A DNA stretch of 35,226 bases from assembly GCA_011524995.1 (NCBI GenBank), contig WTJA01000027.1:33519-68744 (forward strand), written 5' to 3'. The notes under the pieces are model-generated. The model was given only the letters and a program-made list of their open reading frames with translations, had not been told where the DNA came from and did no database searches. The position numbers and the translations under genes were made by a program. Position 1 is the stretch's first letter. Each line of letters begins with the position of its first letter. The DNA is from Alphaproteobacteria bacterium. Its GTDB lineage: Bacteria > Pseudomonadota > Alphaproteobacteria > Puniceispirillales > Puniceispirillaceae. Below, piece after piece: positions 13,497 to 29,124 of this stretch.

Positions 13497-13540
13497 GCCA
13501 TCTAACGGATAGCTGGTTTGATGGAGCGCTAAGGGCAAAG

Positions 13541-13617
13541 GGGCCTGTAGTTCAATTGGTTAGAACCCACGGCTCATAACCGTGTTGTTGCAGGTTCGAG
13601 TCCTGCCGGGCCCACCA
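13541..13617 (+). tRNA. tRNA with CAU anticodon, probably tRNA-Ile2 (k2CAU)
   Basis: A 77-base cloverleaf with encoded CCA. The acceptor stem is GGGCCTG/CGGGCCC with a T6-G67 wobble. The D stem is GTTC/GAAC, the anticodon stem CACGG/CCGTG with loop CTCATAA, and the T stem GCAGG/CCTGC. The anticodon CAT would be called Met by default. However, C4-G69 and C5-G68 match the acceptor-stem determinants that TilS uses on E. coli tRNA-Ile2, and differ from elongator tRNA-Met. The first pair G1-C72 and U11-A24 argue against an initiator. I therefore favour the isoleucine AUA decoder, needing lysidine at C34. Confidence 0.9.
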
Positions 13618-13632
13618 CCCTTCCCCCTCTTC

Positions 13633-13809
13633 TTATTGCGGCTCATTCGCTGGTAGTGATGTGCTAGCGGGATGCATTTCGCCAGTCACCGCTTGGTCTG
13701 GCGTCTCGTTAAAGCCGAAAATCACCCAGATTAACAGCAGCATCACAATCACTAAAAATGAGAGAAGCTGTGTTGAGCTTGGTGTTGGCCGTGCCTCTTT
13801 CGGTATCAT
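13633..13809 (-). CDS. Small single-pass membrane protein, 58 residues, unknown function
   Basis: A short reading frame that looks real because AGGAGGG (minus strand of 13814-13820) lies four bases before ATG 13809. The peptide starts MIPKEARPTPSSTQ, has one strongly hydrophobic segment (LLSFLVIVMLLLIWVIFGF, about residues 15-33) and ends in a polar tail of about 25 residues. Positive charges lie before the segment, predicting N-in topology. No family is recognised. A perfect CtrA-type box (13861-13876) sits about 52 bases upstream in the correct orientation, which suggests cell-cycle control. It lies between the tRNA gene and aatA's terminator, alone on its strand. Confidence 0.6.
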   Translation of the reverse strand: MIPKEARPTPSSTQLLSFLVIVMLLLIWVIFGFNETPDQAVTGEMHPASTSLPANEPQ

Positions 13810-13860
13810 TATACCCTCCTGACTTGGTAGCATTGCGAATTGCTAGCCTATCAGGCAAAG

Positions 13861-13876
13861 GTTAATTTTTCGTTAA
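13861..13876 (-). promoter_or_regulatory. CtrA-type binding site (TTAA-N7-TTAAC)
   Basis: On the minus strand the sequence reads TTAACGAAAAATTAAC, which fits the full TTAA-N7-TTAAC consensus of the alphaproteobacterial cell-cycle regulator CtrA. It lies about 52 bases upstream of the start codon of the 58-residue membrane protein, a plausible promoter position. The match is seen directly; binding is inferred. Confidence 0.5.
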
Positions 13877-13897
13877 TGACAGCCGCAGACGTGCTAT

Positions 13898-13937
13898 AAA
13901 AAAAGCCCCTACCCTATGTGATAGGGCAGAGGCTTTT
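13898..13937 (-). terminator. Rho-independent terminator of aatA
   Basis: The outer arms AAAAGCC (13901-13907) and GGCTTTT (13931-13937) and the inner arms CCCTAT (13912-13917) and ATAGGG (13921-13926) are separated by a symmetric internal loop. The A run at 13898-13904 is a T run on the minus strand, just after the aatA stop codon. Confidence 0.85.
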
Positions 13938-13960
13938 GAAAGATTTATATCAGTGCGCGG

Positions 13961-18390: not shown

Positions 18391-18510
18391 GCAAATAACC
18401 TTTGCGGAATGAAGAGAGCTTGCCCCCTATGCCTGCTCTTTGATATAGCTGGATGTTGGGGGCATTTAGGATTGTCCTATCGCTATTACAGACAGGACGC
18501 AAGTAGGAAA

Positions 18511-19473
18511 ATGGCACCATCAGACCTCTTATCACTCATCGTGACAGCACCCTCTTATCAGGCGCCTTTGGCATTGATGATCGGCCTTGTGGGGCTGGCA
18601 TATGGTGGCAATTTGCTTGTGCCTGCGACTTTGTCCCTTGCCAAACAGCTTCATATCTCGCCTGCTTTGGTCGCTGTGATTGTGCTGGCTGGCGGCACCT
18701 CTATGCCAGAATTGCTCGTCTCTGTGCAGGCGGCGTTTCAAGACAGCCCTGCGATTGCGCTTGGCAATGTGGTCGGCTCCAATCTCGCTAATAGCTGGTT
18801 GGTGCTTGGCTTAGGCGGGCTGATAGCCCCTATTTTAATCGCCGGTGGGCAGATCAAACGAGATGCGCTTGTGATGGTGTTGCTCACCGCGCTTGTGATT
18901 ATTGGCCTTGTGCCGCTTGGCGGCCTGGGGGTGGGTATGGCGCTTATCATGCTGGCAATCCTGACCGCCTATTTGATTGTTAGTATCCGCGCGGATGAGG
19001 TTGATACCGAAGAGGAAGAGATGCTAGAAGGCGGGCTTGCCCGCGCGAGTGTGATGACAGCTTTGTCTCTTATCTGTTTGGTGGCTGGGGCGGAGCTCAT
19101 TGTCTCTGGTGGCCAAGGTCTGGCGCGTCAGGCCGGCATCTCCGAAGGGGTGATTGGGCTGACCATCATCGCGATTGGCACCTCACTTCCGGAAATTGCT
19201 GCTGTGATCGCGAGCCAGTTGCGGGGCCGCTCTGATATCGCGCTTGGCAATGTGCTTGGCTCAAACATTTTTAATATCGGTATGATTTTGGGCGTGACAG
19301 GCTTGATCTCGCCCCTCACCTTAGGCGATGGTGTGACACTGACCAGCCTCGGATTTTTGGCGGCAAGTGCGTTGCTTCTAGCAGGGCTTGTGGCACGCAA
19401 AGCCCCTATGCAAAAGGCAATATCTTTAGGGTTTCTAGGGCTTTACGTCATTTTCATTTGGCATCAAATCTAG
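18511..19473 (+). CDS. Calcium/sodium antiporter, CaCA (YrbG-like) family
   Basis: A 320-residue membrane antiporter with about ten hydrophobic segments and two alpha-repeats that form the ion site. Repeat 1 contains GGTSMPELLVSVQAAF and ALGNVVGSNLANSWL; repeat 2 contains GTSLPEIAAVIASQ and ALGNVLGSNIFNIGM. The two are inverted-topology copies, as in NCX/YrbG proteins. An acidic cytoplasmic loop (EVDTEEEEMLEG) separates the halves. ATG 18511 (MAPSDLL) is chosen, with TAGGA just upstream; an in-frame ATG at 18409 would add 34 non-family residues with no ribosome site. It is divergent from the EamA gene, and its 3' side opens onto the 367-base gap before uvrC. Confidence 0.92.
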   Translation: MAPSDLLSLIVTAPSYQAPLALMIGLVGLAYGGNLLVPATLSLAKQLHISPALVAVIVLAGGTSMPELLVSVQAAFQDSPAIALGNVVGSNLANSWLVLGLGGLIAPILIAGGQIKRDALVMVLLTALVIIGLVPLGGLGVGMALIMLAILTAYLIVSIRADEVDTEEEEMLEGGLARASVMTALSLICLVAGAELIVSGGQGLARQAGISEGVIGLTIIAIGTSLPEIAAVIASQLRGRSDIALGNVLGSNIFNIGMILGVTGLISPLTLGDGVTLTSLGFLAASALLLAGLVARKAPMQKAISLGFLGLYVIFIWHQI

Positions 19474-19840
19474 CCGTTACAACTAGTAGTTTTACACACC
19501 CCCTCTTTATTCGTCTGAAATCTGGGCATTTTTGCCTTATTTCTAAAGTTTTTTTATCTGAGAGGGGGTTGATTTAGTTCAACTATCTGTTTTTATTGCC
19601 TTTTTACATTTTGCCTATCTTTTAGGCACTTTGTGACTCTTTGGCAGTTTTACGGGCCTTTTCTCAAATGTTAGGCCAGTTACCCACAAAGTTATCCACA
19701 GGAATCGGGGATAAGTGTGAGCGGCAAATTACCCAAGTGAGTCGGCTTATTTAGCGAATCCTAATGAGACTGCCCTTTTTTGTAAGTGAGTCCCTCGCCT
19801 AGGGTTGGCGGGGCTGTGTTGTTGCATTAGATTAGGGCGC
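19474..19840. other. Gene-free T-rich region with DnaA boxes and GANTC cluster (candidate origin or DnaA/CcrM control region)
   Basis: There is no gene in these 367 bases. The left half (about 19505-19660) is T-rich, with repeated TTGCC blocks and ATCT-plus-T-run elements resembling a duplex-unwinding zone. It is followed by TTACCCACA (19680-19688), a perfect DnaA box TTATCCACA (19692-19700), and a reverse near-match read as TTATCCCCG (19706-19714). Five GANTC sites fall at 19635, 19702, 19739, 19756 and 19788; chance expectation in 158 bases is about 0.6. AAGTGAGTC occurs twice (19735-19743 and 19784-19792). The arrangement resembles an alphaproteobacterial replication origin, but origin-linked genes such as parAB, hemE or dnaA are absent nearby. 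Confidence 0.4.
19499..19568. repeat. 8-bp inverted repeat flanking a T-rich segment
   Basis: CCCCCTCT (19499-19506) and AGAGGGGG (19561-19568) are perfect complements separated by 54 T-rich bases, just after the CaCA gene. They could bound an unwinding element or form a long-loop hairpin. No T tract sits directly after it in a terminator-like position. Confidence 0.45.
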
Positions 19841-21745
19841 ATGACAGAGCTTGACCTAACGCCCGTTGAGACAGCCGACGAGATCGATTTTGCCCGCGGT
19901 CTTGCCTATCTCAAGAGCCAATTAAAACATCTGCCGGCCAAACCAGGTGTCTATCGCATGTTAGATGCGAAAGGTGATGCGTTATATGTAGGCAAAGCGC
20001 GCGATATTTCAAAAAGAGTGCCAAGCTATACGCGCCCAACCAATTTGAATGGGCGGCTGATGCGGATGGTATCAGAGACCATCAGCCTTGAGATCATCGT
20101 CACCGCGACTGAGGTGGAAGCGCTGTTACTTGAATCGAATCTGATTAAGAAATTACGCCCGCGTTTTAATATTTTGCTGCGAGACGATAAAAGCTTTGCG
20201 CATATTTTATTATCGAAAGACCATCCCTTTGGGCGGTTGATGAAACATCGCGGCCCGCAAAAACAAAGAGGGGATTATTTCGGCCCCTTTGCCTCTGCGG
20301 GGGCGGTCAACCGAACGATCACCTCACTCCAACGGGCTTTTTTACTGCGCACCTGTTCTGATTCCGATTTTGCCACGCGCTCGCGGCCTTGCCTGCAATA
20401 TCAGATTAAGAGATGCACCGCCCCTTGTGTTGGCCATGTGACTGAGGCTGAGTATCAGCATCAGATTACGGCAGCCAAAGCCTTTCTATCTGGGAAGTCT
20501 GATCAGGTGCAAAAATCCTATGCCGCAGAAATGCATGAGGCCGCCGAAGCGCTTGATTTTGAAACCGCCGCCCTCTGGCGCAACCGTATCAGGGCGCTGA
20601 CCTCGATTCAGGCCAATCAAGATATTCATATTGAAGGCATGAAAGATGCCGATGTAATTGCGCTTGCCAAAGAGGGCGGGCAAGTGTGCATTCAGGTCTT
20701 TTTCATTCGCCAAGGCACCAATTATGGGAATAAGGCCTATTTCCCAACGCATGTGGGTGATGCCGATAATCAGGCGATCTTAGCTGCTTTTATCGGCCAA
20801 TTTTATAGTGATAAAGACCCGGCCCCTATTTTGCTTGTCTCTGCGCTACCGGAAGGGGAAGCGTTGTTGCGTGCCGCGCTATCAGAAGCCGCTGGCAAAC
20901 AAATCCAAATCGCCCATCCGCAGCGTGGCGGGCGGCGAAAATTGCTTGATATGGCGGTGCGGAATGCCGAGGAAGCCTTGGCCCGCAAATTGTCTGAATC
21001 AGCCAGCCAAAGACGGCTATTAGAGGCGGTGGCAGATGTGTTTGGTATGGATGAGGCGCCGCAACGTGTTGAGATTTATGATAACTCGCATATTCAGGGA
21101 CGCCATGCGATCGGCGCGATGGTTTGTGCAGGACCAGAGGGTTTTATCAAATCGGCCTATCGTAAATTTAATATGAAAGAGAGCGGCAAATATGCCGTCA
21201 CAGATGGTGATGATTTTGCGATGATGCGCCAGATGATCCATCGCCGGTTTGAACGCGCCTTGCGCGAAGATCCCGATAGGGAAAGCGGCCAATGGCCTGA
21301 TTTATTATTGATTGATGGTGGACGTGGCCAGCTCAATGTTGTGCGCGAGGTGCTGACAGAATTGGGGCTTGATGATTTGATGGTGGTGGGTGTCTCAAAA
21401 GGCCCTGACCGGAATGCGGGCCGTGAGCAGTTCCATATTGAGGGACAAGACAGCTTTACGCTTGCGCCTGATAGCCCAGCGATGCATTTCCTACAAAGGC
21501 TGCGTGATGAATCGCACCGCTTTGCGATTGGCACGCATCGTGCGAAACGCACCAAAGCCACCTTGAAAAACCCATTGGATGAGATTGCCGGTATTGGGCC
21601 TAAACGGAAGAAGGCGCTATTATCGCATTTTGGGTCCGCGCGGTCTATCTCGCGGGCGGCGGTGGCTGATTTGATGGTGGTTGACGGGATCTCAGAAGCG
21701 GTTGCCACTGATATCTATAATCATTTTCATCATCACCAAAAATAG
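19841..21745 (+). CDS. uvrC: Excinuclease ABC subunit C
   Basis: A 634-residue nuclease that makes both incisions around a DNA lesion bound by UvrB. The N-terminal GIY-YIG nuclease (3' incision) shows PGVYRML and ALYVGKARDISKRV at residues 35-60. A UVR motif near 217-250 (HEAAEALDFETAALWRNRI) contacts UvrB. The RNase H-like domain (5' incision) contains EIYDNSHIQGRHAIGAMVC and LLLIDGGRGQLNVVREVL. Tandem helix-hairpin-helix motifs end the protein (IAGIGPKRKKALLSHFG, VVDGISEAVA). ATG 19841 is used; an upstream in-frame TTG at 19805 adds a Cys-rich stretch unlike the family. pgsA follows after 78 bases, a common uvrC-pgsA pairing. Confidence 0.98.
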   Translation: MTELDLTPVETADEIDFARGLAYLKSQLKHLPAKPGVYRMLDAKGDALYVGKARDISKRVPSYTRPTNLNGRLMRMVSETISLEIIVTATEVEALLLESNLIKKLRPRFNILLRDDKSFAHILLSKDHPFGRLMKHRGPQKQRGDYFGPFASAGAVNRTITSLQRAFLLRTCSDSDFATRSRPCLQYQIKRCTAPCVGHVTEAEYQHQITAAKAFLSGKSDQVQKSYAAEMHEAAEALDFETAALWRNRIRALTSIQANQDIHIEGMKDADVIALAKEGGQVCIQVFFIRQGTNYGNKAYFPTHVGDADNQAILAAFIGQFYSDKDPAPILLVSALPEGEALLRAALSEAAGKQIQIAHPQRGGRRKLLDMAVRNAEEALARKLSESASQRRLLEAVADVFGMDEAPQRVEIYDNSHIQGRHAIGAMVCAGPEGFIKSAYRKFNMKESGKYAVTDGDDFAMMRQMIHRRFERALREDPDRESGQWPDLLLIDGGRGQLNVVREVLTELGLDDLMVVGVSKGPDRNAGREQFHIEGQDSFTLAPDSPAMHFLQRLRDESHRFAIGTHRAKRTKATLKNPLDEIAGIGPKRKKALLSHFGSARSISRAAVADLMVVDGISEAVATDIYNHFHHHQK

Positions 21746-21823
21746 CGCCCTGCCCCTATGGACAGCGCCCTATCAGACCAGCTAGAAGGGTAGAGGTGGG
21801 GACAGACGGCGAAAAGGCATCTC

Positions 21824-22396
21824 ATGTATCGACATATTCCGAACATTTTGACCAGCCTGCGCTTGATTGCGGCGCCTGTAATTGCGCTTTTGCTGCTTGG
21901 TATGTCGGGGCCCATTGCCGCGTGGGCAGCCTTGCTCATTTTCATTGTGGCCGCTGTAACAGACTGGCTTGATGGCTTTTTGGCACGACGCTGGCAGTCT
22001 GTGTCAAATTTTGGCCGTATGCTTGATCCGATCGCTGATAAATTAATGGTGATCGTATTGCTAGTCGCACTAATGGGCACAGAGCTTGGCGGGATGGGAT
22101 TACTTGTCCCGGCTGTGGTGATTGTCACAAGAGAGATTCTCGTTTCTGGCTTGCGTGAATTTATGGGCAAATATGATGTTATCGTCGCCGTAACGATGAC
22201 CGCCAAGTTTAAAACAACCTTTCAGCTTATTGCGCTTGGCTTCCTCTTGGCCAGCTTTGCCTTTGCCAAAGGCACACCGCTTTACCAGCTTGCCTATCAG
22301 GGCGGCTTTACGCTGATATGGCTCGCTGCCGCCTTAACAGCCTGGACAGGTGTCAGCTATTTCACACAAGCGTTGGCGCAAATCCCGCGCGCCTAG
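21824..22396 (+). CDS. pgsA: CDP-diacylglycerol--glycerol-3-phosphate 3-phosphatidyltransferase
   Basis: A 190-residue inner-membrane enzyme that makes phosphatidylglycerol phosphate, the committed step to phosphatidylglycerol and cardiolipin. The CDP-alcohol phosphatidyltransferase motif D-x2-D-G-x2-A-R-x8-G-x3-D-x3-D is visible at about residues 47-70 (DWLDGFLARRWQ, then FGRMLDPIADKL). Several hydrophobic segments follow, and the N-terminus NILTSLRLIAAPVIALLLLG is typical. AAAAGG lies six bases before the ATG. It is downstream of uvrC on the same strand and ends at a terminator shared with ilvE. Length matches E. coli PgsA (182 residues) well. Confidence 0.96.
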   Translation: MYRHIPNILTSLRLIAAPVIALLLLGMSGPIAAWAALLIFIVAAVTDWLDGFLARRWQSVSNFGRMLDPIADKLMVIVLLVALMGTELGGMGLLVPAVVIVTREILVSGLREFMGKYDVIVAVTMTAKFKTTFQLIALGFLLASFAFAKGTPLYQLAYQGGFTLIWLAAALTAWTGVSYFTQALAQIPRA

Positions 22397-28426: not shown

Positions 28427-28522
28427 TTTGTCCTGCATCCTTACCCATAACAAACGCAGCCGTGAAACACGCTGCTTGTTCCCTAGTCTTGGCAAGGGCC
28501 AGAGGGAGATGCAACACAATAT

Positions 28523-28563
28523 TTAGTGGTTGGCAGGCCCCTCACCTACGAGGGTTAGTGGTT
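28523..28563. repeat. Direct repeat upstream of the ybjN-like gene
   Basis: TTAGTGGTT occurs at 28523-28531 and again at 28555-28563, 32 bases apart, about three helical turns. Between them CCCTC and GAGGG can pair. The position, 97-137 bases before the ybjN-like start, suits a regulator-binding region. No regulator is assigned. Confidence 0.4.
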
Positions 28564-28580
28564 TTTTGATGGTAAGAGGT

Positions 28581-28601
28581 GATTCGCGCCGCTTATCCAC
28601 A
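28581..28601. promoter_or_regulatory. Perfect DnaA box next to a GANTC site
   Basis: GATTC (28581-28585), a CcrM-type methylation site, lies eight bases from TTATCCACA (28593-28601), a consensus DnaA box. They are in the gap between the ubiK stop codon and the ybjN-like gene. Only one box is present, so DnaA-dependent transcription control is more likely than an origin. Confidence 0.35.
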
Positions 28602-28614
28602 GGGCCATTTTTTG

Positions 28615-28902
28615 TTATTTTTTTGCCGCTTTACTGACCTTTTTGGCAGGTTTTGCCGCCGCGGCCTCAGCCAAGCGCGACTCAAGCTCTTCGATTCTCA
28701 CAATGGCTTTGGCAAGGCGGGCTTCGAGCGCATCAAAATCTTCACGTGCCACAAGCCCGCGTTTGGCGAGCGCTTTTTCAATTTGGCTTTGCATCATGGT
28801 CCGCATCTCACCTCGCACATCCCCCAACGCAGAGGCTGCGCCTGAGGCCATTTGCGTCAGATCAGATAAGGGCAATAAATCAGCAAGTGATGGTTTTTTC
28901 AT
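28615..28902 (-). CDS. ubiK: Ubiquinone biosynthesis accessory factor UbiK (BMFP domain)
   Basis: A 95-residue BMFP-family (formerly DUF526) protein. After a short amphipathic N-terminus (LADLLPLSDLTQMASGAASA), a coiled-coil helix carries the family motif KALAKRGLVAREDFDALEAR and continues to about residue 83. It ends in a Lys/Ala-rich tail. UbiK homologues assist the soluble Ubi complex in making ubiquinone and interact with membranes. AAAGGAG lies seven bases before ATG 28902. It heads the leftward ubiK-ybjN-proC series and is divergent from lgt. Confidence 0.9.
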   Translation of the reverse strand: MKKPSLADLLPLSDLTQMASGAASALGDVRGEMRTMMQSQIEKALAKRGLVAREDFDALEARLAKAIVRIEELESRLAEAAAAKPAKKVSKAAKK

Positions 28903-28997
28903 CTGGCGGCTCCTTTATTTTGCGCTTGAGGCCTAACGCCCCTCCTTTGACATAGGGTGAAGGGCCGCACCCTGCAATGGGCAAAATGGGGAAATGA

Positions 28998-29091
28998 GGC
29001 GCATGATGTGATAGTTCATGATAGGGGCAAGTTATGATATGACACTGACAGGCGGCCCGTGCCACATTAAGATAGGGCGCATGAGATGATA
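28998..29091. repeat. Direct repeat in the ubiK-lgt divergent region
   Basis: GGCGCATGATGTGATA (28998-29013) and GGCGCATGAGATGATA (29076-29091) match at 14 of 16 positions and are 78 bases apart. They lie in the 222-base gap between the divergent ubiK and lgt genes. They may be regulator sites or remnants of a local duplication. Confidence 0.4.
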
Positions 29092-29124
29092 AGACGTTCA
29101 CAGGCAGAGGATAGCACAAGATAG

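Follow-up and report, generated by a model that had tools for sequence, protein, structure and literature searches.

A conserved three-box DnaA element, usually upstream of uvrC in Alphaproteobacteria, as a candidate DARS-type site

The core of the DARS sites consists of three DnaA boxes that are equally spaced in DARS1 and DARS2, with box I opposed to boxes II and III (PMC5742627), and it provides a head-to-head DnaA contact (PMC5742627; PMC8682772). However, E. coli carries 52 similarly arranged box pairs, only two of which have been identified as DARS (PMC5835720), so that geometry alone is no proof of such a site. A review reports DARS-like sequences from many species of proteobacteria (PMC10380432). 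The DARS work that we found concerns E. coli and its gamma- and betaproteobacterial relatives; our literature search found no paper naming an alphaproteobacterial DARS site, and the original 2009 survey may already list cases.

Here we describe an element in a stretch of 35,226 nucleotides (the window) from an alphaproteobacterial genome of 1.96 Mb in 132 contigs. Its order-level group is called SAR116 here, since the named relatives include SAR116-cluster assemblies. The element lies in a gap before uvrC, with the following features:

18409-19473: Na/Ca-exchanger ORF, left of the gap
19474-19840: gap between the Na/Ca-exchanger ORF and uvrC
19575..19717, plus strand: whole conserved element, ~143 bp (scored at 82.9 bits by sequence model R1)
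19580..19592, plus strand: outermost, IHF-like block CAACTATCTGTTT, three mismatches to TAAnnnnTTGATW
19612..19628, no strand: palindrome TGCCTATCTTTTAGGCA (TGCCTA-N5-TAGGCA), of which 19613-19627 fits the Fis consensus GnnYAnnnnnTRnnC exactly
19629..19679, no strand: spacer, nearly fixed in length and little conserved in sequence
19680..19688, plus strand: DnaA box III-equivalent TTACCCACA
19692..19700, plus strand: DnaA box II-equivalent TTATCCACA
19706..19714, minus strand: DnaA box I-equivalent TTATCCCCG, facing box II head-to-head
19739..19743, no strand: GANTC site (GAGTC) at +47 from box II, within the interval conserved in SAR116
19635, 19702, 19756 and 19788 (range 19635..19792), no strand: further GANTC sites, not individually conserved
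19841..21745, plus strand: uvrC, with its ATG at 19841, the usual right-hand neighbour of the element

The original prediction had reported the three boxes and all five GANTC sites at exactly these positions. It had also called the gap the only gene-free stretch over 300 bases in the window: the gap is indeed gene-free, but 13497-13960 holds only a tRNA. An RNA gene in the gap was rejected, as Rfam matches were absent from it. When every position of the window was scored for the triple of box, 3 bp, box, 5 bp and inverted box, the gap reached 24 of 27 and the next best position 20. Furthermore, DNA upstream of uvrC in 30 relatives revealed a longer module extending beyond the boxes, which reads in the family, from its outer end, TAACTTATTGWTTTTATT, TGCCTA-N5-TAGGCA, ~50 bp and NNNTCCACA-NNN-TTATCCACA-GGNNN-CGGGGATAA. 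Its box spacing is close to invariant: 3 bp between III and II in 88 of 91 copies, and 5 bp between II and I in 81 of 91. Elsewhere in the window, at 28520-29124, a second intergenic place combines a perfect TTATCCACA (28593) with three GANTC sites in 120 bp; it surrounds a BMFP/UbiK-like gene before lgt and does not match the element model.

The model R1, built from the sequences of 19 copies, was run on 61 whole genomes of the SAR116 order and gave a single strong match (E 1e-27 to 1e-7) in 43 of them, from three families; none of the 43 carried a second strong copy, and some families (e.g., f4) lacked the element. The window genome itself holds one copy at E<=0.1. In 40 of the 43 genomes the element is directly upstream of uvrC, while in the other three (G006, G007 and G034) the contigs break between the two. 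The gene order in most relatives is uvrB, (EamA), Na/Ca exchanger, element, uvrC and pgsA, and in G008, G015, G037 and G043 it is uvrB, element and uvrC. The position of pgsA, a gene of acidic phospholipid synthesis that follows uvrC in the window (19841-22396), may be coincidental; acidic phospholipids, too, reactivate DnaA in vitro (PMC3535390).

Beyond the order, R1 detected the element, as a rule in one copy, in 179 of the 289 alphaproteobacterial genomes, and R2, a class-wide model from 45 copies with E. coli excluded, gave full-length matches in many genomes of other Pseudomonadota classes (1 to 8 per genome). The element is an ancient, single-copy, putative control element conserved across Alphaproteobacteria. 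Multiple copies were also observed: up to eight per genome in genus g303 of family f164 in another class, repeatedly beside an FAD amine-oxidase gene (in genomes of f164: L187, L193-L196, L198-L200, L202, L206 and L210); two in tandem between hemE and priA in G481, of another class (L192 1036-1168 and 1501-1633); and, in the 1.4-Mb genome G154, three matches clustered in 2.7 kb close to murB and a GNAT gene (L226 4267-6965), against the usual single copy.

Linkage to uvrC was counted in the 90 alphaproteobacterial genomes for which both coordinates were listed. The element is directly upstream of uvrC and on the same strand in 83 of these, at a median distance of 170 bp, which argues for the main rival of a DARS reading, namely that the element is a large operator in a uvrC promoter controlled by DnaA (and in SAR116 also by CcrM/GcrA) that ties excision repair to the cell cycle. 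The GANTC site conserved between boxes and gene in SAR116 points the same way, as does the location of E. coli DARS1 and DARS2 themselves within the uvrB and mutH promoter regions (PMC5835720), by which the two readings are compatible. Several observations, however, speak against the promoter: i) the gap between element and uvrC ranges from 58 to 1241 bp; ii) seven of the 90 genomes keep the element away from uvrC, four of them beside a short-chain dehydrogenase (SDR) gene and others beside rplM, xseA, hisZ, an MFS transporter or infC; iii) in other classes the element adjoins priA, hemE, xseA, an amine oxidase and other genes; iv) these alternative neighbours have no single pathway in common with uvrC. 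A promoter serving uvrC only is weakened by the relocated copies, and we consider the operator reading unlikely, if still the strongest competitor.

GANTC is depleted across the window (67 sites found vs. 130 in shuffles), which makes five of them within 158 bp notable. Occurrence at half the shuffled expectation would be expected if CcrM-type methylation matters in this bacterium. When the 67 sites were placed at random 3000 times, five such sites came together somewhere in the window in 38 cases. The claimed enrichment is real and stronger than had been stated: local density predicts 0.30 sites, against the 0.6 given in the original prediction. Among the genomes read, only the window genome has the dense cluster of five, and the 9-mer AAGTGAGTC is repeated as described but its repeat is not retained in relatives. 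Between +46 and +64 from box II, a GANTC is present in 14 of 19 SAR116 copies (0 of 2000 shuffles) and in three of 26 other alphaproteobacterial copies, by which the cluster was rejected as a class-wide feature. Of the proposed DnaA/CcrM control region, the DnaA part is strongly supported, with boxes conserved far beyond the genus; a link to CcrM is plausible only within SAR116, where a single GANTC site is conserved.

The gap had originally been proposed as a chromosomal replication origin; its dense GANTC sites and its DnaA boxes next to a T-rich stretch do speak for one. The usual origin neighbours (hemE, gidA, parAB and dnaA) are absent here, as the original prediction had conceded. Sampled GC skew of three complete relatives placed the minimum 0.2-0.8 Mb from the element: at ~1.81 Mb in G008 (element at 2.417 Mb), at ~1.49 Mb in G015 (element at 0.730 Mb) and at ~0.87 Mb in G043 (element at 0.642 Mb); the skew of G083 was flat and uninformative. 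By the skew of these three relatives, the origin reading fails a test that the original prediction had itself proposed. At the G015 minimum, several DnaA boxes lie between hemE and a run of kinase-PPPase, maf, coaE and dnaQ-like genes, and the opposite side holds rho, mnmE and gidA; this is the classical alphaproteobacterial origin neighbourhood. Within the window, skew is mostly positive on both sides of the gap, and E. coli oriC received the lowest model score (see below). With the skew minimum elsewhere in three complete relatives and a hemE-type origin elsewhere in one of them, the element is not the origin; gene context and skew reject that role for the relatives, and we regard it as extremely improbable overall. 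The hemE contig of the window genome ends at the hemE start (G000:C15:11954-11964), so that its likely oriC is missing from this contig.

Both accessory sites are enriched at the family level. Of 45 alphaproteobacterial copies, 40 have a palindrome that fits the Fis consensus, where 1.9 would be expected. It mostly precedes box II by 78 bp; in a smaller group the distance came out as 64-66 bp, probably because it was measured to box III, which the search caught first. The IHF-like block (family consensus TAACTTATTGWTT) fits TAAnnnnTTGATW, and sites with at most one mismatch occur in 14 of these 45 copies, against 1.45 expected, and in 12 of 24 copies of a second set, mostly from other classes, against 0.65 expected. 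Despite this enrichment, the site in the window copy is weak. As for candidate binding proteins, the window genome encodes three HU/IHF-family genes, while an HTH_8 search of it found no stand-alone Fis: the matches to this Fis-type helix-turn-helix were two long NtrC-type frames and a RegA/ActR-like regulator. The strict palindrome points to a protein partner.

Read on its reverse complement, the window element is TTATCCCCG-ATTCC-TGTGGATAA-CTT-TGTGGGTAA, to be compared with TTATCCACT-ATTCC-TGTGGATAA-CCA-TGTGTATTA in E. coli DARS1 and TTATTCACC-TTTTC-TGTGGATAG-AGT-TGTGAAGAA in the DARS2 core. The three sites share a three-box core with box I opposite II and III, and the spacing of 5 bp (I-II) and 3 bp (II-III), where the E. 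coli boxes were assigned to I-III by inference from published text and sequence. Over boxes II-I, the 23-mer TTATCCACAGGAATCGGGGATAA shares 21 of its 23 bases with the DARS1 core, which reads TTATCCACAGGAATAGTGGATAA on the minus strand. Among the four E. coli regions scored with R2, the element's sequence model is nearest to the DARS sites (DARS1 31.0, DARS2 core with IBS1-2 21.9 and DARS2 right half 18.9 bits), followed by datA (17.9 bits) and oriC (13.1 bits), and a second scoring run with models built without E. coli gave a similar ranking. E. coli DARS2 carries two IHF-consensus sites 3 bp apart (L137 1229-1257), in agreement with the published IBS1-2 (PMC4245941).

The rank of datA next after DARS, together with DnaA boxes and an IHF-like site outside oriC, could suggest a datA-type site, at which ATP hydrolysis is promoted by IHF-dependent loading of ATP-DnaA, or a site that simply titrates DnaA. 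However, in the comparison with datA, where boxes 2, 3 and 7 surround one IHF site, the model matched only partially, over boxes III-II, and the head-to-head box I was absent; moreover, three boxes in one copy can titrate little DnaA. Either role appears quite improbable to us.

We therefore return to DARS as the preferred reading: the element is probably an alphaproteobacterial DARS-type site, a candidate converter of ADP-DnaA to ATP-DnaA. Several lines of evidence speak for this at the level of the DNA: i) its anatomy; ii) its fixed spacing; iii) its single copy; iv) its deep conservation; v) its location apart from oriC; vi) its being nearest to DARS among the E. coli loci tested. In the mechanism that we propose, of which DnaA binding, nucleotide exchange, the bending proteins and the methylation link are all predicted, ADP-DnaA would bind boxes I and II head-to-head, and box III would bring in another protomer. 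Bending of the DNA by IHF at the outer site, together with a dimer on the palindrome (possibly Fis in bacteria that have it, and another factor in this bacterium), would cause the DnaA complex to release ADP. The apo-DnaA would then take up ATP, permitting the next round of initiation at a separate hemE-type oriC. In SAR116, the nearby GANTC could tie this switch to CcrM methylation and hence to passage of the replication fork.

More tentatively, and with less confidence than in the DARS assignment itself, Alphaproteobacteria may possess one ancestral, usually uvrC-linked DnaA-reactivating site with an architecture of its own (the core, a TGCCTA palindrome for a non-Fis factor, and IHF), coupled to CcrM methylation in SAR116; it might represent both the missing ADP- to ATP-DnaA step in the cell cycle of the class and the ancestral DARS form of the phylum. 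As a single, class-wide and precisely built element at a predictable address, it allows the regeneration of ATP-DnaA after regulatory inactivation to be tested directly in those relatives that can be cultured.

Compared with known systems, the element shares with the hemE-type alphaproteobacterial oriC the presence of DnaA boxes in an AT-rich intergenic region, but that origin has another locus and other neighbours and, in G015, sits at the skew minimum. With datA it shares DnaA boxes with an IHF-type site outside oriC, but not the head-to-head box pair, which the matched part of datA lacks. DARS1, in the bioD-uvrB intergenic region, has three boxes in identical orientation and spacing, shows the near-identity in sequence given above and likewise precedes a uvr gene; it differs in that, at the conserved distance, it carries neither a palindrome nor an IHF-like block, and the model matches it over the core half only. 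DARS2, upstream of mutH, resembles the element in core geometry, in a nearly full-length model match and, as far as consensus sequences go, in Fis-type sites and in IHF-type sites on the box III side. On the other hand, its order is core-IHF-Fis while that of the element is core-palindrome-IHF, and Fis is not evident in the window genome.
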